From Chiridota heheva (taxonomy: Eukaryota > Echinodermata > Holothuroidea > Apodida > Chiridotidae): 64,000 bases of DNA. The position numbers and the translations under genes were made by a program. Under the pieces are notes generated by a model, which was not told the DNA's origin, searched no databases, and was given only the letters and a program-made list of their open reading frames with translations. Shown one piece after another: positions 8,564-61,837 of this stretch. Location: assembly GCA_020152595.1 (NCBI GenBank), contig JAIGNY010003850.1, positions 321,001 through 385,000 on the forward strand. Reading direction: 5' to 3'. Each line of letters opens with the position of its first letter. Positions within the stretch are counted from its first letter, which is position 1.

Positions 8564-9094
8564 ACAACTTGGAATACTGAATGGTGGTAGGTAATGAACA
8601 AGGTATGCATAGACATCCCTTCTCAAAATAAGGTCCATTTTTAAATTAAAATTATATACTTTAAAATTATCAAATATAATTATTTTAAAGAATAAATGTA
8701 TTTACAGTTGAAATGAGTATATACAACATTTCTTTATTCAAACAAGTATGCGTGACTTGGATTGCAACATCCAGTAACTTACAACTTGAATTGGCTAGAA
8801 GACTCCCAATTAAACTTTATTACTAGAAAGTATTACATAACTTAATTCTTAATTTATCATGAGATGGGATGAATACTAGTTATGGATTGTGTGTGACACT
8901 TCAATTCAGCCCTTTTTAAGACAAACACTTGACTTATTATGAAGCAAATTTACAATTTGCCACAACCAACCAGTCATATCTAAAAATAATAATAGTAATA
9001 ATGATAATAATAATAATATTGTGTTCTGCTACTACATGCAACACTTATCTCTCATTCAAGCATATCCTTTCTTAACCTGTCCCATATACCTGAA
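8564..9094. other. No gene recognised
   Basis: AT-rich sequence with a short ATA/ATAATA run near 8985-9018. No gene support. Confidence 0.5.
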
Positions 9095-9842
9095 CTCCAG
9101 ATCACACCTCTCCAACTCACACCTCTCCCCTCCAACTCACACCCTCCTTCAATTCACACCCCTTCCCCTCAAATTCACACCTCTCCCCTCCAACTCACAC
9201 CTCTCCCCTCCAACTCACACCTCTCCCCTTCAACTCACACCTCTCCCCTCCAACTCACACCTCTCCCCTCCAACTCACACCTCTCCCCCTCCAACTCACA
9301 CCTCTCCCCTCCAACTCACACCCTCCCCCTCCAACTCGCACCTCCCCTCCAACTCGCACCTCTCCCCTCCAACTCACACCTCTCTCCCTCCAACTCACAC
9401 CTCTCCCCTCCAACTCACACCTCTCCCCCTCCAACTCACACCTCTCCCCCTCCAACTCACACCTCTCCCCTCCAACTCACACCCTCCCCTCCAACTCACA
9501 CCTCTCCCCCTCCAACTCACACCTCTCCCCTCCAACTCACACCTCTCCCCTCCAACTCGCACCTCTCCCCTCCAACTCGCACCTCTCTCCCTCCAACTCG
9601 CACCTCTCCCCTCCAACTCGCACCTCTCCCTCCAACTCACACCTCTCCCCTCCAACTCACACCTCTCCCCTCCAACTCACACCTCTCCCCTCCAACTCAC
9701 ACCTCTCCCCTCCAACTCACACCTCCCCCTCCAACTCACACACCTCCCCTCCAACTCACACCTCTCCCCCTCCAACTCACACCTCTCCCCCTCCAACTCA
9801 CACCTCTCCCCTCCAACTCACACCTCTCCCCCTCCAACTCAA
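9095..9842 (+). repeat. C-rich minisatellite, ~18-20 bp unit, ~0.75 kb
   Basis: Units read CTCCAACTCACACCTCTCCC with one- or two-base length changes in the C-run and a CTCGCACC variant. The array is strongly strand-asymmetric. It opens long frames on both strands (Ser/Pro/His/Leu repeats on plus, Glu/Gly/Trp repeats on minus). These are consequences of the repeat, and no start context, splice site or domain supports a protein. A CT-rich flank extends to about 10060. Confidence 0.95.
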
Positions 9843-10108
9843 TTTCCAATCTTTTCAAGAACAGTCCTACCTCCAACTTCATCACCTTTCTCCACAGCAA
9901 TTTATTCCACCTGATATAAACCTCCCTTTCCTTCCCTTCCCAGCCTTACCTTCCTTTTATTACCTTAACTTCTTTCCCTTATTCATCTTCTCTCCCTCCT
10001 TCCCTCTATCCCACCTCTCTGTCCTAACTCAAGCACCTTAGTTTTTAACACCCTCTTGGCACATTTAACTGACTGTCACGGTGCTGTCAAACATCAACAA
10101 ATCAAACC

Positions 10109-16660: not shown

Positions 16661-16697
16661 TGAAATGAATGGACATCATTAATGTCCATTCATTTCA
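16661..16697. other. Perfect 16-bp stem hairpin beside the minisatellite
   Basis: TGAAATGAATGGACAT and its exact reverse complement are separated by the 5-base loop CATTA. The hairpin abuts the first unit of the 20-bp array. If the minus-strand gene is transcribed through the array, this hairpin would lie downstream of it in the 3' UTR. Confidence 0.8.
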
Positions 16698-16700
16698 ATG

Positions 16701-17900
16701 TGTGTATCATACAGCAAATGTGTGTATCATACAGCAAATGTGTGTATCATACAGCAAATGTGTGTATCATACAGCAAATGTGTGTATCATACAGCAAGTG
16801 TGTGTATCATACAGCAAATGTGTGTATCATACAGCAAATGTGTGTATCATACAGCAAATGTGTGTATCATACAGCAAATGTGTGTATCATACAGCAAATG
16901 TGTGTACCATACAGCAAATGTGTGCATCATACAGCAAATGTGTGTATCATACAGCAAATGTGTGTATCATACAGCAAATGTGCGTATCATACAGCAAATG
17001 TGTGTACCATACAGCAAATGTGTGTATTATACAGCAAATGTGTGTATCATACAGCTAATGTGTGTATCATACAGCAAATGAGTGTATCATACAGCAAATG
17101 TGTGTATCATACAGCAAATGTGTGTATCATACAGCAAATGTGTGTACCATACAGCAAATGTGTGTATTATACAGCAAATGTGTGTATCATACAGTAAATG
17201 TGTGCATCATACAGCAAATGTGTGTATCATACAGCAAATGTGTGTATCATACAGCAAATGTGTGTATCATACAGCAAATGTGTGTACCATACAGCAAATG
17301 TGTGTATTATACAGCAAATGTGTGTATCATACAGTAAATGTGTGTATTATACAGCAAATGTGTGTACCATACAGCAAATGTGTGTATTATACAGCAAATG
17401 TGTGTATCATACAGTAAATGTGTGCATCATACAGCAAATGTGTGTATCATACAGCAAATGTGTGCATCATACAGCAAATGTGTGTATTATACAGCAAATG
17501 TGTGTATCATACAGTAAATGTGTGCATCATACAGCAAATGTGTGTATCATACAGTAAATGTGTGCATCATACAGCAAATGTGTGCATCATACAGCAAATG
17601 TGTGTATCATACAGCAAATGTGTGTACCATACAGCAAATGTGTGTACCATACAGCAAATGTGTGTATTATACAGCAAATGTGTGTATCATACAGTAAATG
17701 TGTGCATCATACAGCAAATGTGTGTATTATACAGCAAATGTGTGTATCATACAGTAAATGTGTGCATCATACAGCAAATGTGTGTATCATACAGCAAATG
17801 TGTGTATCATACAGTAAATGTGTGTATCATACAGTAAATGTGTGCATCATACAGTAAATGTGTGTATCATACAGCAAATGTGTGTATCATACAGCAAATG
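16701..17900 (-). repeat. 20-bp minisatellite, 60 units, probable 3' UTR of the minus-strand gene
   Basis: Exactly 60 consecutive units of TGTGTATCATACAGCAAATG (plus-strand form) occupy 1200 bp without a single insertion or deletion. Variants are substitutions only (TACCAT, TATTAT, GCATCAT, AGTAAATG). Units carrying TATTAT recur at 17021, 17161 and 17301, giving a 140-bp higher-order period in part of the array. The unit length is not a multiple of three, so all plus frames stay open and give Cys/Tyr/His/Gln-rich frames; I regard these as spurious. In minus-strand orientation each consensus unit holds TGTATGATA, a PUF-type 9-mer, and the first unit contains the gene's stop codon. Confidence 0.95.
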
Positions 17901-18789: not shown

Positions 18790-19359
18790 CTGTGGAAGAA
18801 ACAAGTAACAAACAGTAAGGTTCCTTCATCTAAAATATAATTCATAAGCATTAAGGCATTGCATACAAATTTTCTGGAATCAGGAATGTTTTCAATAATC
18901 AATAATTTTCTGCTTCATTTTTGCTATAATTGAATCATTTCCATTAAATATTGGGTAAACATTTGGCAACCTATGTAAAAGACAATCTCTGAATATCCAT
19001 ACTAAAAGAAAGTCTACACATATGATCTTCCAAATTAAAAACCAAGGCGGAACAAATCATATCAAATAATAATAACAACAATATTTTAAATATTTTTCAA
19101 CTTTTTTTGGTTTCTTTTAAGGCTTAACATTGGTTAGTTTGGTAACAACTTATGAAACTCCTAAATTTGAATCTATGTAAATGTTGCTCCCATGCATTCA
19201 CCAAACATTAACAAAACTTCAACTTATGCTTCTAGTTGTTGTATCATACTGGTATCATGAATGTTAATAGATACAAACTAGAACGGTAAATACGGTTATG
19301 GTTCGCATGCCCATGCAAATTGACACCCATATCATATGACCTGCCCAATTATAACAATG
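18790..19359. other. Intron of the minus-strand gene, no other feature
   Basis: AT-rich sequence between the terminal-exon acceptor and the CCACATGG minisatellite. No exon signals were seen. Confidence 0.5.
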
Positions 19360-20735
19360 GCATCCCACATGGCATTCTATGTCCCACATGGCATCCCATG
19401 TCCCACATGGCATCCCATGTCCCACATGGCATCCCATGTCCCACACAGCATCCCATGTCCCACATAGCATCCCATGTCCCACATGGCATCCCATGTCCCA
19501 CATGGCATGCCATGTCCCACATGGTATCCCATGTCCCACATGGCATCCATGTCCCACAAGGCATCCCATGTCCCACATGGCATCCCATGTCCCACATGGC
19601 ATACCATATCCCACATGGTATTCCATGTCCCACATGGCATCCCACCCCATGTCCCACATGACATCTTATCCATACCTTGTACCACAGGCATTCCACCATA
19701 TGTCCCACATGGCATTCCACCATATGTCCCACATGGCATTCCACCATGTCCCACATGGAATTCCACCATGTCCCACGTAGCATCCCATCCTATGACCCAC
19801 ATGGCATCCCAATATATGTCCCACATATGGCATCCCATCCTATGTCCCACATTATATCCAATCATATATCCCACATAGCACCCCTCCTAATGTCCCACAT
19901 GGCATTCCTCCCTGTATCCCACATGGCTCCCACCTGATGTCCCACATGGCATTCCATCTTATGTCCCACATTAAATCCCACTATATGTTCCACATGGTAT
20001 CCCTCCCCATGTCCCAATGACATCCCACTTTATTTCCCATGTGACATCACATCCCATGTCCCCATGGCCTCCTACCTTACGTCCCACATGGCCTCCTACC
20101 TTATGTCCCACATGGCCTCCTACCCTATGTTACACCATGGAGGTACCACTTTAGCCACACTTGTGTTACTCGTGGCATCCCACCCCATGTCCCACACAAT
20201 ATCCCATCCCATGTCCCTTATGGCATCCCACCCCATGTCTCAAATGATATCCCACACCATCCCATGTCCCACATGGCATTCCACCCTATGTCCCACATGG
20301 CATTCCACCATATATCCCAATGACATTTCACCCTGTCCCACATAGCATCCCACCTTATGTCTCACATGGCCCCATCCTATGTCCCACATTATATCCAACA
20401 TTATATCCAACCATATGTCCCACATTGCATCCCACCCCATGTCCCACATTGCATCCCACCCCATGTCTCAAATGATATCCCACACCATCCCATGTCCCAC
20501 ATGGCATTCCACCCTCTGTCCCACATGGCATTCCACCATATATCCCAATGACATTCCACCCTGTCCCACATAGCATCCCACCTTATGTCTCACATGGCCC
20601 CATCCTTTGTCCCACATTATATCCAACCATATGTCCCACATTGCATCCCACCCCATGTCCCACATGACATCCCATAGGCTCCATACATGACATCCCATAG
20701 GCTCCATACATGACATCCCATAGGCTCCATAAGCA
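19360..20735. repeat. CCACATGG minisatellite, ~19-20 bp unit, ~1.4 kb, intronic
   Basis: Units read ATGTCCCACATGGCATCCC, well preserved at 19360-19640 and increasingly diverged to the right. A higher-order duplication of about 240 bp is visible: ATGTCTCAAATGATATCCCA.. starts at both ~20235 and ~20464. The end shows three copies of GACATCCCATAGGCTCCATA. The near-palindromic CCACATGG core keeps frames open on both strands (Met/Ser/His/Pro on plus, Trp/Asp/Met/Cys/Gly/His on minus). None has gene support. The array lies in the intron between the last two coding exons. Confidence 0.95.
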
Positions 20736-22446: not shown

Positions 22447-22557
22447 TACAGTATTTAAAGGAATATTACCCAACCCAGGCTTGAACCCAGGGCCTCGTGG
22501 TCTGTAGACAGGTACTGTATGATAACCGCTACACCACAGTAGGTAGATGATGTTATA
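22447..22557 (-). mobile_element. Short tRNA-like SINE with 13-bp target duplication
   Basis: On the minus strand the A box TGGTGTAGCGG (22526-22536) and B box GGGTTCAAGCC (22478-22488) are correctly spaced for RNA polymerase III. The acceptor arms do not pair, so it is a tRNA-derived retroposon rather than a working tRNA. Perfect 13-bp direct repeats, TTATATCCAATGG, flank it at 22434-22446 and 22558-22570. Confidence 0.7.
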
Positions 22558-22570
22558 TTATATCCAATGG

Positions 22571-23138
22571 TTTTTGGCAAATATATTCATATGCATTCGA
22601 AAGAGCATACTTTTAGAGCCAACTTAATACAAAAATCAGGTTGATATCATTTTCTGTTCAAGAAATATGAATTTTTAACAATTTCCCAATTGCATTTTAA
22701 ATTTTTGTACAGTATGATGAATTTGTGTTTCATGATGTCATAGCAGCAATTCCATTGCAAATGTTTATGTATTTCTTTGAATGTTAATTGGTTGTTTTTG
22801 TATGTTTAGAAACAATTTTCCAAAAGTTATTGAAGTAAAGGATATTTGGCAATGTATATATAAATATCTAATTTTCATCAATTAATTTTTCTAGCAGGTT
22901 TTACTAATAAATAGGGATGATATATTTTAATGAACTACATATTCTTTGTGGGAGAATGTGTTGCTGTAATGTCATACTGAGCCTTTTCCATTTCGTTTAT
23001 TGGCATTTTTTGTGAATTCAAAAATGAGAAAATATCTGGTAGGAATAACATATCAACATGATTTTTGGACTAAATTGTAGCTAAAATTGTTCTCTTTTCT
23101 TATGAAAGGTTACACAAAAACTGGGAATATTCCTTTAA
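22571..23138. mobile_element. Element E, copy 1 (contains the empty site for T)
   Basis: Sequence blocks CAGGTTGATATCAT, CCATTGCAAATGTTTATGTA, TCTAGCAGGTTTTA and GAATGTGTTGCTGT, and the end GGGAATATTCCTTTAA, are shared in order with the split copy at 32395-39298. Here GTAATGTCA (22966-22974) is present once with nothing inserted. It is non-coding. Confidence 0.7.
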
Positions 23139-23357
23139 GCCGCAAATTTTCAAGAAAACGTATGAAAGAATACATTCATTTTGAAGAATCTGAGATTGTG
23201 ATATCACAACTAGTCTGAATTCAGTCGTTTCTACACAAACTTTAAACTTAAAATATCTCCTTAATGGAATAAGATTTTTGAATGCATTCTTCACCACTTT
23301 TGTTTCTTTTAGTTCCTTATTCATATAAGATGAATTTGCTTGACCACTGAACTAATC

Positions 23358-26670: not shown

Positions 26671-26951
26671 CAGACCTGCCAACCTTTAGAATCACCAAAC
26701 TGTATACTGGAACTACAAAAGTTGTATTTTTGATAAAAAAAACTGTACTCTTTAAACAAAATGTACAAAACAAAGGTTTACTGTGGGTGAAAGAAATTAC
26801 CACTGTACTTTCAGTTTCTCTTATTGTACGAATCTGAATCTAAATCGGTTAAGTCAGCAAAATCAATCCTTCAAGAGGACATGAACGCCAACCGAGCATA
26901 AAAAGTATGAGTAAAAAAAATAAAGAAAAATAATATTAAAAAAATAAAATA

Positions 26952-26982
<31 letters not shown>

Positions 26983-27068
26983 GTATTCTGGTGCCAAAAA
27001 ACGTACAATTGTATTCTCAACATTTTCCTGTATTAAATACAGCAAAATCGTACTAGTTGGCAGGTCTG
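26671..27068. mobile_element. MITE-C copy 1, perfect 6-bp target duplication
   Basis: Terminal inverted repeats CAGACCTGCCAAC / GTTGGCAGGTCTG bound 398 bp. CAACAA flanks both ends exactly (26665-26670 and 27069-27074). The interior holds AAAACTGTACTCTTTAAACA, a long A/T-rich run, and TTTTCCTGTATTAAATACAG. A longer version lies at 38408-39011. Confidence 0.85.
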
Positions 27069-32394: not shown

Positions 32395-32788
32395 TTAAAG
32401 GATTTCATATTCTCATGGTTTTCTGTCAAATTTTATTTAAAAGATCATACATTTAGAGCCAATTTGTACACAAATCAGGTTGATATCATATTCCGTTCAG
32501 TGGATTTTTAAATTTTTAAATTGCATTTTAAAGTTTTTGCATTTGAATTTGTTTTTGTACAAGTCCATTGCAAATGTTTATGTATTTCATTGAACGTTAA
32601 TCGGTTGTTTCTGTATGATTAAAAACAATTTCCCAAAAGTTATTGAAGTAGGGTATATTTGGCAATGTATATAAATACTTAACTTTCATCAATTTATATT
32701 TCTAGCAGGTTTTATCAATAAAAAAGGATGATAGATTTTAATGAAACATCAACATCAACTTTGTGGAGAATGTGTTGCTGTGATGTAA

Positions 32789-33970
32789 ACCAGGAGCCCA
32801 GACAGTTTATTCAGCTGAAAAATTACAAAAGGTTTTAATGTCAGGTCATGTCCATCTGGACCCAGGACTCACTAATCAATGTTGTTGCTGGGTCACATCC
32901 TGTACCAGTAGCCAGGGGGCACAAGATAGGGGGCCAAAAATTATTCAGCCGAAGAGATACAAGGAGAAAATTTGTTGGATTATGCTCCCTTCAGTGACCC
33001 TTTTTTAAATAAAGGTTGGAAACAGTTGAAATAAAAGGTTTTTGGTTTTAGATTGAAATAGAAGGTTTATGCCTGAATAAATTTTCCAAGGACATATTCT
33101 GGGGCAAAAGGCGATAGCCTTAACATGAAAATGGGTCCCTACTTTTTAAAGAGAACAGTTATTCATTAAAAAAATACATGGCTAAAATGAAATTTCTTCT
33201 TCTTTAAAAATAAAGGTTTTTAAAGATTTTAAAGGTTATTTTGGAACCATTCAATTTGATAAAGGGTTTCAGCCCTGTTATAAGTACCCAATGGACATGA
33301 CAGCAACTTATGCCTGTACCAGGACCCAGACAGTAACCTTAAAGGGGGCCCCTCAAGCCATTTATTCAGCCTAAAAGATACATGGATGAATCTTCTTCTA
33401 TTAGAACCATTATACCTTGGAAATCACATAAATACAAATAAAGCAACTTCATCCTGTACCAGGGACCAGACAGTAGCCTTAAAGGGCCCCTGTCCCTCAA
33501 CTCATTTATTCAGCCTAAAAGATACATGGATGAATTTTCTTTATAGAACTACTGTACCTTGGGGTCACAAAAATACAATGACAGCAACTTTATTCTGTAC
33601 CAGTGGACCAGACAGTAGCCTTAAAGGGCCACTGTCCCTATTAACTAATTTAATTAGCCTAAAAGATACATGGATGAAACCATTTTCCTTTAACCATTAT
33701 ACCGGAGGTCACAAAATGTCAATGACAGCAATTGATTTTGTACCAGGGACCAGACAGTAGCCTTAAAGGACCTATACATAGTGTGTTATTAAGTCGAAAA
33801 GATACATGGATCAATTTTCTTCCATTTGAGGTTTTATGCATGCTTGTTGCAATGATACCACTGTCAGCTACTTTGCCCTGTATTAGGACCCAAACAGTAA
33901 TCATTAAGGGTTGAATGGCCCTACAGATAATTGAGTTGAAGCTATACGTGGGTAACACTTTTACGGAACT
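32789..33970 (+). repeat. Left inverted arm of T with ~140-bp tandem subrepeats
   Basis: Subrepeats start at about 33313, 33453, 33595, 33738 and 33877, each with CCTGTACCAGGACCCAGACA, GTAGCCTTAAAGG, TTATTCAGCCTAAAAGATAC and ATGGATGAA. The outermost segment is a related but more diverged unit. Short frames here are by-products. Confidence 0.8.
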
Positions 33971-34246
33971 ATTGCACCATTACTTAACAAAAATACGAAA
34001 TTATTGTTACCAAGACATGGTCGGAAGATACAGGAACCCTTTAACGAAGTAAAATTTTTGATGAAAACAACATTCTGACAAATTACTTCAGTGGTAAAAA
34101 ATTTATTGAAAGTGTAACTTTTAACTTTCAAAAATATGGTTTTCTCTTACAACAGAAGAAAATAAAAGTGTGCCCAAAGTGAACGTGGATGTAGGCATTA
34201 TTTACAACAAATTGTATGCCTGTTATAATAAAAGAAATAAAGAATA

Positions 34247-35022
34247 CCCAAAGCTGGGTGGGTCAGTTTTGCTTGAACTATTAACAACTCTAGATTGAAC
34301 TGTTTTGTTTGCTTTTGGAGGGGAGAGGGGAGAGGGTGGCTGGAGTTAATGTGTTAGAAATCAATTTCAAAAAACGAAATAATTGTACTGTTTGCAATGA
34401 TAAAGGAAGCATAATAAATCTTTTATTTGTGCTTGATAAATAAGTTGTGGGTATGGTTTTTGATAAATATGATTTTTTTCATCTCACGGTGAATTATGAA
34501 TGAAGCATTTGTGTTTGACAAATATTTCCAAAAAATAAATAAATATTAATTGCCCAAAGCTGGGTGGGTAAGTTTTGTTTAAACTATTAACAACTCTAAA
34601 TTGAGCAACTGTTTTGTTTCTTTCTTGAGGGGAGGGGTGGGGGGATGGAGGCTGATGGTGAGGGTGTTAAAGGCAATGCTATGAAGTTATTTTGAAGATG
34701 AGCATTTTTTGTACCCTCCATGATTTTTGAGTTGAAAGCCTCTCCCTCTTCATGTCCAAACCTATCAAATAGAAGCTAGAGAATGGTTGTGTATATATTC
34801 TAGCATTCAAGCAACCTTACCCCTAAATATTGATATTCTTTACAGTCTTAGAAAATAACAAGAAAATAAAATAATTTTGTGTGTTTGCATTAATATAGTA
34901 AACATAATAAATCCTTTGTCTGTACTTGGCGAATAAGTTGTTGGTATGGTTTATGTTAAATAAGATTTTTTCATCTCACAGTAGTATTAATGAATTATGA
35001 ATGAAGCATTTTGGTTTTAGCC
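34247..35022 (+). repeat. Direct repeat inside T, 306-bp offset
   Basis: CCCAAAGCTGGGTGGGT opens both units (34247 and 34553). Both share ACTATTAACAACTCTA, ATAATAAATC and TGAATTATGAATGAAGCATT. The second unit is longer by an internal insertion of roughly 165 bp. Confidence 0.75.
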
Positions 35023-35034
35023 ATTTATAAAACT

Positions 35035-37600
35035 GTCAAATGAATCAAATTCAGTAGAGTACAAATTATGGATGGTATCATAACAAATAAGCAATGGCTT
35101 CTGTGCAATAACAAATAAGTTCATAATAAGTTCTTCTTCTTCCTCCCATTCGCTGTCACAATCAACACTCCATGGCCGGTCATTCAAGTCAATATTATTG
35201 TCCAAGATCATCAATGAAAGTGTCTTCAAAATTACATGGATCGCTTTTTGTGTCAAAGGGCACGGCATGTTCTAGCTCTGGGTCGTCATCACTGATCATG
35301 GTGTCCGGAAGAGATGATCCTGCAAACCAGTAAGGAACATAGCAGACATCCTCATTAGTGACCCATCTGAAATTCAGTGGATGTAAGTCTTTCGTTGGTT
35401 GAGAGGTATGAGCTCATCTCCACATCATAGCTTTATAGTTAGCACATGACAGATGTTGCGCTACTGCTTTTTCACAGGGTGGTAAGGACAAACAATTGAT
35501 TCTTTTCACCTGGACATCTTTCTTCTTGTTGCCTGTCATTTTGATGAAAGACTGGTACCTGGCCTCGTTGATATTACTTAATTGCTTAAAGCCATACATT
35601 CTGCACACATACGCAATGATCGCAGGTTTATCTATGACATCATGACACAATGACCTACTGTAAGTGCTAAAATGTGATTTCTGTCAATCTCCAAATAACT
35701 GAATGGTACTGACTTGCCTTTTCTGTTTCTGGCATTTTTGATGCAAGCGCTACCAGAATGACGAGTACATCAGTATCAGACGATTAAACTATTACCTGTT
35801 TGTCTATTCTGTAAGTATGGAATGCCATGAGTGTGTCAGCCTCTTCATGCCTTCCCTGAAACTCTGCTGGTTCTTCAACTATCAGCATGCCCATTGAGTT
35901 TACATTCAGCTTGAGACACTTGCCACCATGGGAAACATAGACAGTCTTGCTACCAAAAATACTCTTTTCCCTGGATCTCCTTCAACAGGAATTGAGCAAG
36001 TCTTAATGCACCATGGTTCAGCAAGTGGATGCCTTTTCTCTGCTGCTGTTGTTCCACCTCTGTAATGATGAATGTGTTCATCTCATTATTTGTAGAACCT
36101 CTACTCAGCCTTTCAACAGCTTTGATAGATAGCTCTTCATCTTCATACTTATCCAGCAATAGATGAACAGAATCCCCACTGGCAGAACACACCTTCACCA
36201 TGATATCTTCAACCATTTTGCCATTGGTTGATTTGTTATGACGGGGCAAAACTTTATGGAGAAGAAGTCCATCATCGAAAAGGGTGGCATCGAACCTGGA
36301 ACCTAAAGCATTATCCTGGTTTGATTTTGGTAGCTTGGATTCTAGGAGCTTGGTGAGGTTTGCTTTATCTGTTTTCGTTGGAGTGCCATCAGCACGTGTG
36401 AGAGCGAGTGGAATCTCAGTGATTGGGAAACAAAGTACATCATGTAGATCGATGTTAGACTTCGATAACAGATAGCTGAATGCATCACGGACACCTTCAG
36501 CTGCTGCTAGACCCTTCTTATCTCTTGAGGCTTTTCTTTTTGTATTTGCTGCAGTAAAGTTCTGAACCTTCACGCGCTTGACAGTCATCAGAAATTGGTT
36601 TCATCAGATGCACTCTTTATGGAACTCCTGCCTCACTTTTGCTCCTCTCTGCAGTGTTCCTAGAAGGTAAATACTGGTCCTTGGAGTAGCAGCCTTTCCA
36701 GTGGCAATCAATATTCACTTATGTGGTTGGTGCTTCAATTACGAATGGATCACATGTAGAGCGAAGCACTTTGAGGATCTTTTCTGCATCATTATTGTCC
36801 TGCCGAATCCTCCACTTTTGCGTAACTGGTTAGCTGGGGTTTCACCATGTTGAATGCCACTCATCTCTTCCATCTCAGTCACAGCCATACCTCATTGAGT
36901 CAGTGTAACACACCAACGATGGAACGCGCTTTCGGAATTAGCAAAATGGGTTATTCCAGTTGCAGAAGATACCGTGTCTCTGTTGACTGTCTGCTTGAGT
37001 GTAAAATTGATTGGACTCCTGGAATATGGCTTCTTTGTTCGTCTTGTTGAAAACGCACCAGCTTTAAGGATGTCCATTGCCTCCTTGTTCAAGTGATTCA
37101 ACCTTTCAAGAAAATGTGAGCCCCAGCGAGCATAATTTGGTCGGTTCAAAGCAAAAAATACATCAATCATAGATGGCAGGACTTTGATATACAGCTCCAC
37201 ATTATTTGCCCTCACAGCACAGCAGCTGGAATTCAATACAAAATGATTGATAATTAGATGCATGTAAATTGCCCAAAATGCTGCAGTTTTACCCAAGCTC
37301 ACCCCTAATGGACGATGGAAAAATCTTCATAGTCATTAAAGCAGCTTTGGAATTCTTCAGTATCAGCAAGATTGCTCTGAACCTCAGTGTCTTCCTTTAG
37401 TATGTCCTTGATATGTTGTACCACGTCCTTGTGTTCCTCGCTGCATTCAGTGCATTAGAAAGCGTTCAAACAATGCTTTCTCAACTGCACTGGCAGTTAC
37501 CTGATGTATCCTTTGTACATCTGTTGTATAGTTTCTCTTTAATGAAACCATTTAGTAATCCCTCTGCAAGTACATCAAATTCTGTTAGCAGATAAAAAGG
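35035..37600 (-). pseudogene. Decayed gene of a multi-copy EADT/SSDTDV protein family inside T
   Basis: Read on the minus strand, pieces in several frames follow the order I recall for an uncharacterised, highly duplicated family in aquatic invertebrates: an N-terminal part (37600-37300), NYARWGSHFLERLNHL and FSTRRTKKPYSRSPINFTLK with QTVN (37302-36892), TEMEEMSG..QLRKS (36890-36800), an LTRADGTPTKTDK segment and VHLLLDKYEDEELSIK (36588-35950), EEADTLMAFHTYRI (35846-35805), SSDTDVLVIL (35783-35754), then YGFKQLSNINEARYQSFIK (~35590) and an acidic end. The paired acidic motifs suggest a PIN/FEN-like nuclease fold, which is inference. Frameshifts and stops (for example TGA at the end of the 36892 block and TAA just before SSDTDV) make it non-functional. 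Confidence 0.6.
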
Positions 37601-37724
37601 CCTGAATCATTAATGTACTGTAGGTTCCAACAGCTCCAAAAAAAAGCCATTTCAACATGGAAATGACCAAGCAAAATGATAAATCTGTCAAAAATTGGTG
37701 ATTTCAAGGCTTGAATGGAATATG

Positions 37725-39124
37725 CCTTTTATGCTACTGCAAGGTCATACATGTATGTGACAGGATGGTATGGCATTTTTTTCCGTCTGCAACTTTCAAA
37801 AATCATGGCATGGTCTCCTGTACAGGTGCGGACCTTATTTGGGTCTACTGTCTGGGCTGGGCCACCGTACAGGATGAAATTGCTGTCACTGTAGTTTTGT
37901 AACCACTTATGTATAATTGTTTCAAATGAAGATGATTCACCCATGTATCTTTCAGCTGAATAAACAAGTTGAGGGACAGAGGCCATTTAAGGCTCCTGCC
38001 TGGGCCCCAGTACATGATAAAGTTGCAGTCAATGGTATTTTTGTGACCCCCAAGTTTCCATGAAAGAAGATTCATCCATGTCTCTTTTCGGCTGAATAAA
38101 CGAGATGATGGACAGGGGCCCTTTAAGGCTACTGTCTGGGCCCCAGTACAGGATAAAGTTGCTGTCATTGGTATTTATGTAACCCCCAAAGTATAATGGT
38201 TTCAATAGAAGATTCATCAATGTATTTTATTTTTTTAGCTGAATAACCCCCCTGAGTGGGTCCCTTTAAGACTACGGGTCCTGGTACAGGCATCCATGTA
38301 AGTTGCTGGCATGACTATGGCCAGCATGAGTACCCTTTTAGAAGCATAATCCAACAAATTTTGTCAGCATTTTTTTGGCCCCGTATCTTGGATACTGGTA
38401 CAGGATGCAGACCTGCCAACCTTTAGAATCACCAAACTGTATTCTGGAACTAAAAAAGTAGTATTTTTGATAAAAAAAACTGTACTCTTCAAACAAAATG
38501 TACAAAACAAAGGTTTGGCTGAAAAAAATTACCACTGTACTTTCAGTTTCTCTTATTGTACGTTGCAGTTGCCTTTTTGCATTTCTAGAGTGCTTTTTTT
38601 TTTAATGTACGTTGATGGGATGGAATCCCTGCTGCTTGCCAATAGATCTTGCTAGTTAAACAGTCTGATAGAACTGGAGTACTTAAGTTTGATCGGAACT
38701 CTGTTGCAGGTACAGTGTGGGTTGCCTTATGCATAATTAATTTGTAAGTCTACACTTTTTAGCGGCAGCCGCAAATGGTTATAAATCGTATTCTGAATCT
38801 GAATCTGAATAGGTTAAGTCGGCAAAAATCCTTCAAGAGCACATGAACGCCAATCGAGCGTAAAAAAGTATGAGTAAAAAAAAATAAAAAATATATAAAA
38901 AATATATAAAAATATTTAAAAAAATGTATTATGGTGCTAAAAAATGTACAATCGTATTTTCAACATTTTCCTGTATTAAATATGGCAAAATCGTACTAGT
39001 TGGCAGGTCTGAAGATGTGACCCGGCAGCAACATTGATTAGTGAGTCCTGGGTCCAGATGGACATGACCCAACATTCAAACCTTTTGTACCTTTTTAGCT
39101 GAATAAACTGTCTGGGCTCCTGGT
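37725..39124 (-). repeat. Right inverted arm of T
   Basis: Carries the reverse complement of the left-arm subrepeats (TCCATGTATCTTTCAGCTGA, AAGGCTACTGTCTGGGCCCC, CAGTACAGGATAAAGTTGCT). It is interrupted at 38408-39011 by MITE-C. The outer ~110 bp pairs best with the left end. Confidence 0.8.
38408..39011. mobile_element. MITE-C copy 2 (long form) in the right arm of T
   Basis: The same CAGACCTGCCAAC inverted termini as the 26671 copy, flanked by AGGATG (38402-38407) and AAGATG (39012-39017), a 6-bp duplication with one change. The left arm of T shows the unoccupied sequence (GTCACATCCTGTACCAG), confirming the insertion point. It is ~200 bp longer than copy 1 in the middle, including CTTTTTAGCGGCAGCCGC. 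Confidence 0.8.
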
Positions 39125-39298
39125 CTAATGTCATACTGAGCCTTTTCCTATTTGTTTATTGGCATTTTTTTGTGAACCTTAAAATTTGAATATCTCTTCA
39201 TAGGAATATCAAATCAACATGAATTTTGTACTACATTGTTTCTAAAAAAATTCTCTTTTTATGAAAGGGTACAGAAAAACATGGGAATATTCCTTTAA

Positions 39299-42176
39299 GT
39301 ACAGTACATTCCAACATATCAAAGTGCTACTCAAATCAACTCCTATGTACTGTAGATACATGTAAGACATGGCCAGGTGTATATCTTAAGTGTGCATAAC
39401 CCAATAAACCTTGTACCTCTGATACCAGTATTAAACAGACAGTAATACACAATGATAATGTGTATGAACAGTACATGCAGTGACTATTTAACTGTACATT
39501 AACTGAGGGTTGATTTAAGGAAGGCATGCCATTACTGTACTGTACATGTACCTGTGACATTATTCAGGAAATGTTGTTTTGCTAAACTTAAGGATCCAAC
39601 CTTAATTGATTAAGGGAACCTGAAATTAACCCACCATTACACTTGCATAGTCCTTTAGTTGTAAATGCCCCTTATGGTTTTCAAGTGGTACCGGCCCAGG
39701 CACATAGCCAGGGGAAAGCCAACAAATCACAGCTTCCCCCTCCCTTGCCAAATGTTGATTTTTTTTTGCATCTTTTGAATGATCTGCACAGAATATATAA
39801 ATAAGAGAATCTCATTTATATAAATCACTCAGGAAGCCCTTCAAATTATTTTCCAGGTCCAAATTATTTTTCATAGAGGTTCCTCCCCCACCCTTAAAAT
39901 TTCTAGCTACGTGCCTGACCCGGCCCTTTCTGGATCAAGCCAAGGTTTTGCCTTTGACATCACACACTTGCAATTTTCTACAACTACATTATGAGATCAA
40001 TTTTAAAGGGCAGTTTCTTTGAATTTCAAATGTTTCTTTGATTTTCAAATGTTACATGTATGTACATACTGTCTACTGTAGGTTCCCCTTTTTGTTGAAG
40101 GTATGTACATACTGTACATACATGCAGTACATGTAGGTATATGTATGTACAACATTGACTAAGGTAATTACTAAATTACTTTAAAACATAAAACAATCAT
40201 GAAAGTGGCAAAAGATTTCATCAAAATCAGTTTAAAATGATCCATTTTACAGTACACTGTATATTGAAATGTGATGCATCAATATTTGCAAATTTTTATG
40301 GAAATCTGTGATGTATTACAGGGCAACCTTGGTATATTCTTTTATTATTTTTTTTTTTTTTTAATTCCTATCTTACAGTAATTCTTTTACTATAAGAGGT
40401 GCAACAAAATTAAACAAAATTTGCATACCCAAACAACCCATCATTTTCACTGCCTGAGATTACGATTTGTTTTTAAAAGAATTATAAAGGTTTTGAGCCA
40501 TCTGTCTGTCTTACAGTGCTGTACTTAATCATAAATTAAGCATTAATTACAAATTGATCGAAATTAGATCAGCCATAACTCAAGAAGTAACAAGAGCCCA
40601 AGGGCACTATGGTTCCTTGCTACAAAATGAAATTTTGGGGCAGATGGAGGTCATCCGTAACTCCAGAACCAGGCATGCTATTTAAGTGGGGAAATGGCTC
40701 ATTCTTTGCAACTCATCAAGGTCTATCACATACCAAAAAATTATTAACTTGTTATTATAGCCATTTTTCTCCCAAAATAAGCATAATTTTACAGATTTGA
40801 CTATTGACCTTTTGACCTCTAGTCAAATGTAACTTGACACTCTGATTCCAAAAACAAAAAGGCAAGTCCGTACAACCATCCTAAGTAGACTTAAGAAATT
40901 TTGACCTCCGATAACTCCGCACATGAAGGTCGTACAGGAATCAACCAATTGCCTTTTTTGATCGGAAGGTACTTTTGAAATCCGAAAATGGGGTCAAAAT
41001 TATCGAAATACCACAAAAAAATGTTAACATAAGAGGTCACCAGAGGTCAAAGTCAATATAAAGCGGAATGGCAAGACAATTACACTGGTGCAACTCCCAC
41101 TCCTAACTGACATCCTCTTCAGTTAACCAACCCTAATTCTATGATTGGCCAATTGTTAATATGCAAATGAGCAAAACTTGTGATACTCTTCACTTAACCA
41201 CCACTGGCCAATTTTTATTATGCAAAAGAGTAAAACTTGTGGATAACGTGATTGGTGTTCTAACAGTCTTGGTTTTAAACAAGGTGCAGTGTAATTGGTT
41301 GATTCAGGGATGTGTTCATTACACATATCTTTGGTTGATTAAATAGTGTATCTCTATGGTTAGTATTTGCCTCATAAGTGACCTTCTACATTTTATTGCA
41401 TGGAGAAAATGTCTGTAGACACATGGAGGTAGACAACACACAGTAAATTCCCTTTCTAAGGTAAACAAATACAGGTGGCAAAGAAAACAAAACAGGTCAG
41501 CAACATGGACCAATGACTTTCTGTTGACATCTTTATGACTTTTTTTTTAATGCAACAGGTGGGGTGAATTATATATTTCTCAGGTGTCTGTTTTTTTTAC
41601 ATAAAAGATGATAAGCAGCCATCAAAACTGAAATAGCTTTTAGGCTCATTGGTCTTTATACTTTGTGCATTTAGTATTGAACCCTGGATTGTAGTATGTC
41701 AGTGGCATTCAAGATTTAATCACACTTCAGGAATTTGTATTTTTACTATATCACACTGATGGGGTCTGCTAGACAGAAATTCTATTCTTAAGAATATATA
41801 TAAACCAATAATACAACCCACTGGAATGCATCATTCATACCACCTCACAAAAGATATCCATAACACTTGAAATGTAACTTCACAATGAGACAGAGCGAGG
41901 TCAATGTTATAAAAGTGTATTATGTAATAGCAAAATAGAATGATAGTTCCTGGCCTTGCTGATGTGAAACCACACTAGTCTTTCAACAGCTCTTAGGGTA
42001 TCATGGCATGGACTCTGGGCTTCTATTTATACCATTCCATGTATTCTTATCAAAAACTGTGTTTAATGGAAAACAAGTAAACTTAATTCAAGTAAATCAT
42101 AAAAATAAATTATATCATTTGTTCTTCAAATCAATAACTATTTGGCGTCAAGCTTATTTTCATTATTTTATTATTG
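39299..42176. other. No gene recognised; repeat-like intergenic or intronic DNA
   Basis: Contains a GTAC-rich palindromic patch (40050-40150), a MITE-like unit bounded by CAGGCACATAGCCAGGGG and TAGCTACGTGCCTG (~39697-39916), and phrases such as TTGACCTTTTGACCTCTAG common in dispersed repeats. No exon could be supported. Confidence 0.45.
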
Positions 42177-57488: not shown

Positions 57489-57570
57489 TCAATCTGAATC
57501 TGAATAGGTTAAGTCGGCAAAAATCCTTCTAGAGGACATGAATGCCAACCGAGAATAGCAAAAGTATGGG
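57489..57570. mobile_element. MITE-C internal fragment
   Basis: AATCTGAATCTGAATAGGTT and AATCCTTCTAGAGGACATGA match the middle of MITE-C (26840-26890 and 38800-38860). Termini are absent. Confidence 0.6.
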
Positions 57571-57733
57571 GAAAAAAATAATAATAATAAATATTTATAC
57601 AAAATAAAAAAATTGTGCTGAGGGGTATGTATAATAACTAGAGGGAGGGGGCAACTAAATGGTAAATATCAGAAAATGTATGTATGTACAATAACCTGAT
57701 ATTTTGATTTTTTTCTAAATGCTAAAAGCCCCA

Positions 57734-58832: not shown

Positions 58833-61800
58833 TTGTTATGGAATTCTTGGTCATTAATGGAGCCGTGTATAATATACAATAGAAAGGAAGTATTCGAGAT
58901 TGGACAAAAGCTTGTTAAACACAATGGTGCACGTATTGACCACGGTCTCTGGACACACTTGAAAGAACTCGACATAGCTAAAAAGATAAAGCGAGGATGC
59001 CGTGGTGGTAGAAAGAACCATCGCATTGAGGTAATCATCAACAATAGAGTTTGCCGAAATCTCCAAAGTAGCGTCACATTACCAAGACAACGACAACTTG
59101 TTCATGTTCCGATAGTTCGTTGTGCTACTGATAAACTAAAATCTGTTTATCCCAAAGCTCGTTTCGCCACATGGAATGCAAAATCTATAAAACGCTTTGG
59201 AAAAACAGCGTCAATATGTGACTTAATCATTGAACATAAACTGGACATTCTTGCGATCACTGAGAGTTGGTTGACTGGGGATTCTCGTGATAATCGAGCA
59301 CTTGCTGACATTTCAATACATTACCAGACTTTCATGTTTTTCAAAATCCCCGAAAAAATCGTACTGGAGGTGGAATTTGCATTATTCTCCGAAAAGGATT
59401 TCATGTCTCACTGAATAAGACAGCTCCATGCTCTTCATATGAACTTATGGATATGACAGTCTCGTCAAACAGACAGCAACCTTTTAGGCTGATTACCATT
59501 TACAGACCCCCGCCATCCAAGCGAAATAAAATGAATAGTGCAACATTTTTTAATGAGTTCACTACGTTGTTGGAAGAAATATCAATTGTTCAGTGTCAAG
59601 TATTATTCGCTGGTGATTTTAATCTTCATATGGATGATGAAAACGATTGTGATGGCCGCCGTATGCTTGATATTCTTCAGTCAGTTGGTTTTCAACAACA
59701 TGTGACTGGCAGTACTCATAATAAGCAGCACTCACTAGATTTGATCATCTGTCGTGATATTGATCCTTTTGTATCAAAGATCACAATCATTAATGGTCTT
59801 CCATCAGACCATTCAGCAGTTTAATTGTGATCTTGATGTTGCTCGACCAGAAGCGACCAAAACCATCTTGTGTCAACGGAATTTGAAAAGAATTGACCTC
59901 GTTTTTACGTAAGGATGTGTTAGATTCGCCATTGTTTCAAACGCCTGCTGAAGACCTTGATGCGCTTACAGACCAGTACAACACGGTCTTGCGTAAGATT
60001 CTTGACCATCATGCTCCCGAAAAAAACAGGAAATCACAAATCGTCCCCACACACCTTGGTATGATGACAGTCTTCGCATGATTAAACGGAACAAGCGTTC
60101 ACTTGAGAGAAAATGTAAAAAGTCCGGTTTGGTAATAGACAAACAGATCTTTCAGCAAAGTTGTATTAAATACAAGCGGCTCCTTGACAGTGCCAAACAG
60201 AAACATCACCAGTCAGTTATTACCAACTGTGACCAGAGGCAACTGTTTAAAGTGATCGATAGATTATCAAATGTCCAATCATCTACAACTCTACCATCGA
60301 GCAATTCGTCAATAGATCTTGCAAATGCGTTCCGGGCGTTTTTCGAAGAGAAGATTCTTAAGATACGACATTCATTGGAATTTGACTCTCCACCTGTTTT
60401 CTCTGAAATCATCCACCGGACTTGCAATAGTTCTTTTGCGAATTTCAAGAGCGTCACTGAAAATGAGGTTCGGGAGGTTGTGCAGAAAGCAGCAAAAAAG
60501 TCTTGCATACTTGACCCACTGCCAATGACATTGTTTCTTTACTTACTTGAGGACCTTTTACTGGTTCTTACAAGGATTGTAAATAAGTCTCTATCCTCGG
60601 GTAGGTTCCCCAACAGCTACAAAGTTGCTCGTGTAAAGCCTCTAATCAAAAAACAGTCTCTTGATTGCGAAGTAATGATGAATTATTGACCAATTTCCAA
60701 TTTACGTTTTGACTCTAAGCTTGTTGAACGGATTGCGGTCTTACAACTTCAGGACTACTTGAGAGAGTTTGGATTACATGCAAATAGGCATTCGGCGTAT
60801 AGGCAAGGCTGTAGTACGGAAACAGCGCTTTTGCGGGTGTATAATGGCCTTTTGCAGACGATAGACAAAGGTGATGAAGCTGTTTTGATCTTACTCGACT
60901 TCTTCGCAGCATTCGACACCATTGACCATCGGGTATTAATTGCTCGCCTCGAGGAGCGTTTTGGAATCACCGGAAGGGCTTTGGAGTGGTTTACGTCTTA
61001 CTTGAAGGATCGCAAACAAGCTGTTAGTGTAAACACAACCCTATCAGATCCGATTCAACTACATTATGGCGTTTCACAAGGATCGGTCGCTGGTCCCGTT
61101 ATGTTCACAATGTACAGTGCTCCAGTTGAAGATATAATAGAGTCAAACGGAATTCAGTGTATGTCATACGCTGACGACACGCAGTTGTACATCCCTATGA
61201 AACCATCCGATAGAAACACTTGTATTGCCAAATTGGAAAAAGTCTTGTTGACATAAAAGCTTGGACCATTAGCAATAAACTTAAACTGAACGATAGCAAG
61301 ACGGAGATTCTTCATATCACGTCGCGCAATGTCAAATCAACCAATATTGCTGGCATTCAAGTAAATGGAACTGTAGTGGAACCTGTGCAATCAGCTCGCA
61401 ATCTCGGTGTCATTTTTGACAAGCAGCTGTGCATGACACAAGACGTTAACAACATTTGCAAAAACGCCACACACGCAATCAGATGCATTGGTCGAATCAG
61501 ACACTATCTTGAAAATGACACTACCGTGAAACTAGTACATGCTTATGTGACTTCTAGGTTGGATCAGTGTAATTCCCTTTTATACGGATTGTCTGATATC
61601 GAGATCATGAAATTGCAACGAGTCCAACATACCGCCGCCCGACTTGTAACACGCTCGAAAAAGCACGAGAGTATTTCCGAGATTTTGCGAAGACTCCATT
61701 GGTTGACCATTCGTCAGAGGATTGCCTTCAAGAATAATCTACTCACCTACAAAGCGCTTCACGCACTGACACCATCATACATATCAGATCTTGTTACACA

Positions 61801-61837
61801 ATATGCCCCATCCCGGTCCTTACGTTCTTCGTCGTAA
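58833..61837 (+). pseudogene. Broken endonuclease/reverse-transcriptase ORF2 of LINE-A
   Basis: Frame pieces are 58833-59360 (pre-domain and endonuclease start), 59360-59822 (endonuclease), 59826-59880 and 59893-60050 (linker), 60078-61240 (RT, with an internal TGA at 60687-60689 where R-PISNL normally carries Arg) and 61220-61837 (thumb and C-terminal part). The TGA is what one C-to-T change in CGA would give. The RT box 2 sequence has Phe where Ser is common (FFAAFD versus LSAAFD), another sign of decay. Confidence 0.8.

Follow-up and report, generated by a model that had tools for sequence, protein, structure and literature searches.

What is the 6.3-kb inverted-repeat element in the middle of a 64-kb stretch of Chiridota heheva contig JAIGNY010003850.1 (the window, by which we mean the whole 64,000-nucleotide stretch that was analysed), and how is it related to the single decayed gene that lies within it? 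The initial annotation did not recognize this gene as a known transposase, and suggested that the element, T, would represent a new transposon class or carry a new type of cargo if the gene's family is generally found between such arms. We arrive at a different view, in which the gene appears to encode the transposase of T itself, with an XPG-type nuclease at the C-terminus, as in the AcademX layout. T is a decayed copy that can no longer move on its own. It probably comes from a family of DDE-type cut-and-paste transposons for which AcademX, in the Academ superfamily, is the most likely identity, an assignment made by layout and duplication length and not by direct homology.

Ends and target site

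T comprises 6342 bp at 32786..39127 and has the ends TAAACCAGG...CCTGGTCTA. Copies of these ends across the host genome mostly read TAG-ACCGGGAGCCC...GGGCTCCCGGT-CTA, or close to this, and TAG and CTA are therefore part of the element. T itself has TAA at its left end, where most other copies have TAG, and CTA at its right end. The element originally placed at 32789–39124 is thus real, but its TAA and CTA ends shift both limits. Flank comparison identifies a 3-bp target site duplication, ATG, on the plus strand at 32783..32785 on the left and at 39128..39130 on the right. The proposal that an unoccupied relative of the target exists elsewhere in the window holds up: such a relative is found on the plus strand at 22544..23139, it reads GTTGCTGTA-ATG-TCATACTGAG across the empty site (ATG at 22969–22971), and the joined flanks of T match 22668–23139 at 79% over 490 columns. 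The target is itself a repeat (22544–23139; 32395–32785 with 39131–39300), and its two halves are in part inverted copies of one another, ~72–74% alike.

Flanking 3-mers agree in 10 of the 11 elements for which both ends are resolved (the window T, L011, L012, L013, L014, L016, L018, L021, L025, L038 and L040), compared with 6 of 110 mismatched left–right pairs used as a control (Fisher p 7e-10, a rough value since the control pairs are not independent). The exception, L013, is one of six gene-bearing elements in this set, the other five of which have the 3-bp duplication. Twelve of the 20 regions fetched from the host genome (L009, L010, L015, L017, L019, L020, L022, L023, L024, L026, L027 and L028) were left out of the count because one of the two ends was absent, broken or beyond the limits of the fetched sequence. 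At lengths of 4 to 10 bp the flanks agree in none of the 11 elements. The 9-bp duplication first claimed for T does not stand: its flanking 9-mers match at six of nine bases and take in terminal bases of T itself, and 0/11 elements have a duplication of that length.

Inverted repeats, subrepeat arms and a nested element

The ends of T form an outer inverted repeat that is 92.7% alike over 110 bp (32790–32899 and 39014–39123). On the left this repeat extends past the 110-bp core (32786..32986, plus strand), and its right-hand partners flank a nested element that cuts off the inner part (38343..38407, minus strand) from the right terminal inverted repeat (39012..39127, minus strand). Inside the outer repeats lie the left arm, made of tandem ~140-bp subrepeats in which a 21-bp core points inward (33297..33910, plus strand), and the right arm, made of ~136-bp subrepeats (37857..38313, minus strand). 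The matching inverted ends and long arms of tandem subrepeats reported from the initial reading are thus borne out.

The 21-bp subrepeat core, TTATTCAGCYKAAAAGATACA, has nine matches with up to three mismatches in the 64-kb window, against a mean of 0.01 in 100 shuffles. All nine are located within the arms or outer repeats of T and point inward, with six on the plus strand on the left and three on the minus strand on the right, showing that the terminal repeat and the arms have one repeated inward-pointing site in common. These subrepeat arms with repeated inward sites are the least familiar feature of an otherwise ordinary element. Between the left arm and the gene there is also a tandem duplication of ~300 bp (34230–34516 and 34532–35017, 76–80%), and overlapping matches suggest a duplication of the same type in several other T-type elements.

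The nested element (38408..39011, 604 bp) is a foreign inverted-repeat element and not part of T. It is flanked by AGGATG and AAGATG, a 6-bp duplication with five of six bases alike, and has the ends CAGACCTGCCAAC...GTTGGCAGGTCTG. A second copy at 26671–27068 is flanked by CAACAA on both sides, a partial copy is present at 57491–57613, and the copy in T has ~230 extra bases at 38563–38794. Elsewhere in the window, open frames on the plus strand at 58833–61837 resemble by eye a LINE endonuclease and reverse transcriptase (YADDTQLY), and long repetitive open frames of minisatellite-like character occur in several frames at 16669–17857, 19264–20345 and 9021–9914.

A decayed gene between the arms

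The presence of one gene remnant with EADT and SSDTDV motifs inside T, as first described, is confirmed. The remnant lies between the arms on the minus strand at approximately 35198..37749, is interrupted by many frameshifts and stops, and is spread over all three frames. Comparison with relatives allows motifs to be assigned to its pieces, all on the minus strand. A stop-free piece at 36895..37326 carries an NYARW motif and the region of a candidate third catalytic residue. A second stop-free piece at 35953..36600 contains an upstream region and an XPG-N-like part (FDDG, LLDKYEDEELSIKAVERLSRG). An XPG-I-like part with HEEADT and SSDTDV follows at 35670..35981 and has one internal stop, and the C-terminal remnant occupies 35198..35683, with a HALTGCD segment missing just upstream of it.

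The alignment of T to the relative L039 starts only just before the second candidate Asp, indicating that the region of the first is missing in T. At the candidate third residue T reads LKQ, as against LEQ in L039 and L032; L030 likewise has Lys. In T a stop also precedes SSDTDV, and the HALTGCD segment of L010 and L039 is absent. Because of these frame breaks, missing regions and the Lys at the candidate Glu position, T is dead and non-autonomous, and could move now only with protein from another copy. No Pfam family scored above cut-off for the pieces of T or for the relatives scanned, a match of one T piece to DUF4928 being weak and below the Pfam cut-off (E 0.0016–0.018), and single-sequence fold prediction of T's read-through gave a pLDDT of 32.

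An XPG-type nuclease is predicted in the C-terminal half

The nature of the EADT/SSDTDV half is indicated by its relatives. In an alignment of seven of these, the conserved positions are, in order, the Asp of a DG motif (DA in one row), the Asp of (T/F)D.Y (Ala in one row), K..ER..R, the acids of EE.D in (H/Q)EE(A/T)D, those of D.D in S.D(T/S)D (the first Asp lost in one row), the Asp of TG.D and finally KGK. The acidic columns match those of XPG nucleases in the same order in six or seven of the seven rows, and we take them to correspond to FEN1 D27, D80, E152/E154, D173/D175 and D236.

The intact relative L043 was modelled with AlphaFold2 on the basis of five aligned rows, and the mean pLDDT of the model is 53. 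Residues 231–410 reach block pLDDT values of mostly 73–93, with dips to 53–66; elsewhere, TGCD part included, the values do not exceed 60. A Foldseek comparison of this model with the PDB returned 312 matches at E <= 10, of which four, namely Rad2 and three entries for the T5 flap nuclease, have E <= 0.001. All of ranks 1–23 are 5'-nucleases of the FEN/XPG/Xrn group (T5 FEN, Rad2, Xrn1/Xrn2/Rat1, a mycobacterial flap nuclease, Exo1, GEN1, XPG and FEN1), superposed loosely (TM by target up to 0.47, r.m.s.d. 7–22 Å, identity 10–16%). Two PDB profile searches placed Exonuclease 1 in four of nine and four of six listed places and GEN1 in one more, at E values of 0.2–0.4 (Exonuclease 1 at 0.2–0.3); in both searches a ribosomal protein with no relation to nucleases ranked higher. 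An earlier PDB profile search gave no matches, and hhalign profile–profile comparison with four FEN1 proteins was insignificant (probability 1.6–2.8%). The predicted fold and the order of the acidic columns together indicate that this half is an XPG/FEN1-type 5'-nuclease, and that the EADT and SSDTDV motifs would contain the acidic catalytic residues of the nuclease. The protein family was originally called uncharacterized; this stands in so far as no Pfam model matches it above threshold, but not for the nuclease half, which is XPG-like by predicted fold.

A candidate DDE region in the N-terminal half

The N-terminal half contains the motifs WDN(Y/F), (Y/F)DL(A/G)V and LE(Q/E)(S/T), a candidate D-D-E triad identified from one eight-row alignment in which half to most rows are partial. 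The triad is common to L039 and to the group of L037, L038 and L040, L039 being 24% identical to this group; in T and L030 its third residue is Lys. The same half of the relatives shows a weak match to DUF6589, below the Pfam cut-off, and a CxxC...C...H pattern is visible by eye upstream in L038 and L039, with no Pfam match. The long N-terminal region of L038, L039 and L040 is followed by the nuclease part, with both on one strand. From these sequence features we infer a transposase role for the N-terminal half.

The gene is a regular content of T-type elements

We asked what lies between T-type ends in the 1.10-Gb host assembly. The 201-bp T end has at least 40 matches there (86–100%; 40 scored of 177 candidates), and 20 regions (L009–L028) lying inward of such ends were fetched. 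Gene pieces are present inside the ends in nine of the 20 (L010, L013, L016, L019, L020, L021, L023, L024 and L026), and five of these (L013, L016, L020, L021 and L024) show an end at either side of the gene, the other four a single end. The 11 regions that lack the gene (L009, L011, L012, L014, L015, L017, L018, L022, L025, L027 and L028) include three that contain gaps (L009, L022 and L025) and two that hold ~0.6-kb miniature elements (L011 and L014). These miniature derivatives of T (L011:9325–9917 and L014:298–901) have 3-bp duplications, and in L014 the terminal CTA is changed to CCA.

Gene matches lie within 10 kb on the inside of 12 of the 40 T ends, T's own included, and on the outside of none, although both gene searches scored only part of their candidates, so that absence near an end shows little. 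This count used 74 of the 95 nuclease-half matches and three of the 150 matches to the remnant piece; the three were picked for their nearness to T ends, and the other rows, compared by eye, showed no match on the outside of a T end at a distance of 10 kb or less. These counts, together with the fetched regions, make the gene a regular component of T-type elements. As the initial annotation expected, other copies of T carry the gene between such arms, in nine of the 20 fetched regions, and the opposite outcome, the gene family lying outside paired arms, was not seen within 10 kb of the 40 ends. In the T read-through and the L038 and L039 proteins, no Pfam transposase scored above cut-off.

The gene family extends beyond T. 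A 144-aa piece of the remnant has at least 150 matches in the host genome (150 scored of 613 candidates), many of them ~32–33% identical and with long open frames, and the nuclease half of L039 has at least 95 (80 scored of 1079 first-look candidates). Two relatives, 32% (L038) and 33% (L040) identical to the 144-aa piece, have long open frames within inverted-repeat elements of 5553 bp (L038; duplication TTT/TTT) and 5201 bp (L040; duplication TAC/TAC). Both elements have TAG...CTA ends that are unlike those of T beyond the first bases, and contain the same kind of gene. In L039, 44% identical to the 144-aa piece, inverted subrepeats flank the gene left and right, and the ends of L039 are outside the fetched stretch. 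L037, L038 and L040 make up a second, apparently younger family, with long open frames, three copies that are ~97% alike and arms that hold repeats of the ATGGCGTCCAAAATGGCG type. Nothing useful came from searching IMG/VR, GTDB genome contigs, plasmids and phages for further relatives. The position of the gene inside inverted-repeat elements, seen in the T copies and in the L038 and L040 elements, explains the high copy number of the family, as the initial annotation had anticipated. A heavily duplicated protein family with no above-threshold Pfam model thereby gains an identity: the copies examined are transposon coding sequences and not host genes.

Placement of the element

The Academ nuclease is of the XPG type, and Academ proteins have a Cys8 zinc finger and a DDE domain. 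The Cys-rich pattern seen by eye in relatives and their candidate D-D-E triad would fit this definition. In the part of Kojima 2023 available to us (PMC10045372), AcademX duplications of 3–4 bp and AcademH duplications of 9–10 bp are related to the encoded nuclease and helicase, respectively. Beyond that paper, the Academ literature searched, including PMC9783078, PMC10799480 and PMC9004415, gave mentions at most, and our literature search found no single paper with both Academ and XPG. The reading in which a gene not known as a transposase marks a new class or cargo is not supported, the predicted layout being that of the known AcademX group.

Other placements can be weighed against the same evidence. 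It is conceivable, but we hold it only tentatively, that T belongs to a distinct DDE+XPG lineage in which multiplication of the predicted binding site of the transposase has built up the long arms of tandem subrepeats at either end, in a foldback-like manner; if so, the additional arm sites could raise transposase loading and drive high copy number in the 1.1-Gb genome. An undescribed DDE+XPG superfamily, whether related to Academ or independent, is improbable: it would account for the lack of above-threshold Pfam matches to the gene family and draws on the indirect basis of the Academ identity (domain layout and duplication length), but a nuclease combined with 3–4-bp duplications is what the available text of PMC10045372 describes for AcademX, and the Cys-rich finger and DDE domain also belong to Academ. 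We regard it as very unlikely that the XPG-type gene is captured cargo and that T was moved in trans by a different transposase. This reading gains from the absence of an intact transposase in T, from the 11 of 20 T-end regions without the gene, from the scope of the protein scans (T read-through and relatives) and from the candidate status of the DDE fold, but in L038, L039 and L040 the candidate D-D-E region and the nuclease part follow one another on the same strand, and the same kind of gene sits inside terminal-inverted-repeat elements whose ends differ from those of T.

Rehavkus duplications are 8–9 bp long. A Mutator/Rehavkus-like element, or a new one with the 9-bp duplication first proposed, finds some support in the flanks of T, which agree at six of nine bases, but can be set aside, because none of the 11 elements has a duplication of 8 or 9 bp, or of any length from 4 to 10 bp, against 10 of 11 at 3 bp, and no MULE transposase model was found in the T read-through or the L038 and L039 proteins. 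Nor do the parts of the Mutator/Rehavkus literature available to us, including PMC13359780, lend it support.

Under the AcademX assignment, a single gene would encode a large protein whose layout is read from relatives: it is Cys-rich at the N-terminus, contains a candidate DDE region and ends in an XPG/FEN1-type 5'-nuclease. The transposase would bind the inward-pointing sites that recur in the outer repeat and the arms, cut at TAG/CTA and insert the element with a stagger of 3 bp at the target, and flaps of the cut ends may be trimmed by the nuclease domain.

Comparison with known systems

The predicted nuclease resembles XPG/FEN1/Exo1 5'-nucleases in its best fold matches and in the order of acidic catalytic positions, but differs in forming the C-terminus of a transposon protein and in a glutamate motif that reads EEAD here and EGEA there. 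T and its relatives resemble AcademX, a nuclease-encoding transposon with 3–4-bp duplications in the available part of PMC10045372, in their terminal inverted repeats, in the 3-bp duplication (10/11 elements; control 6/110) and in the nuclease, which is recognized in intact relatives by acidic columns and by the XPG-like fold predicted for L043, T's own copy being broken. AcademH belongs to the same superfamily by name, but differs in its helicase and 9–10-bp duplications (same source): no duplication of that length occurs among the 11 elements, and Pfam scans of the T read-through and the L038 and L039 open reading frames detected no helicase. Foldback/TU-type elements have long inverted arms of tandem subrepeats, and T is like them in arm architecture only.
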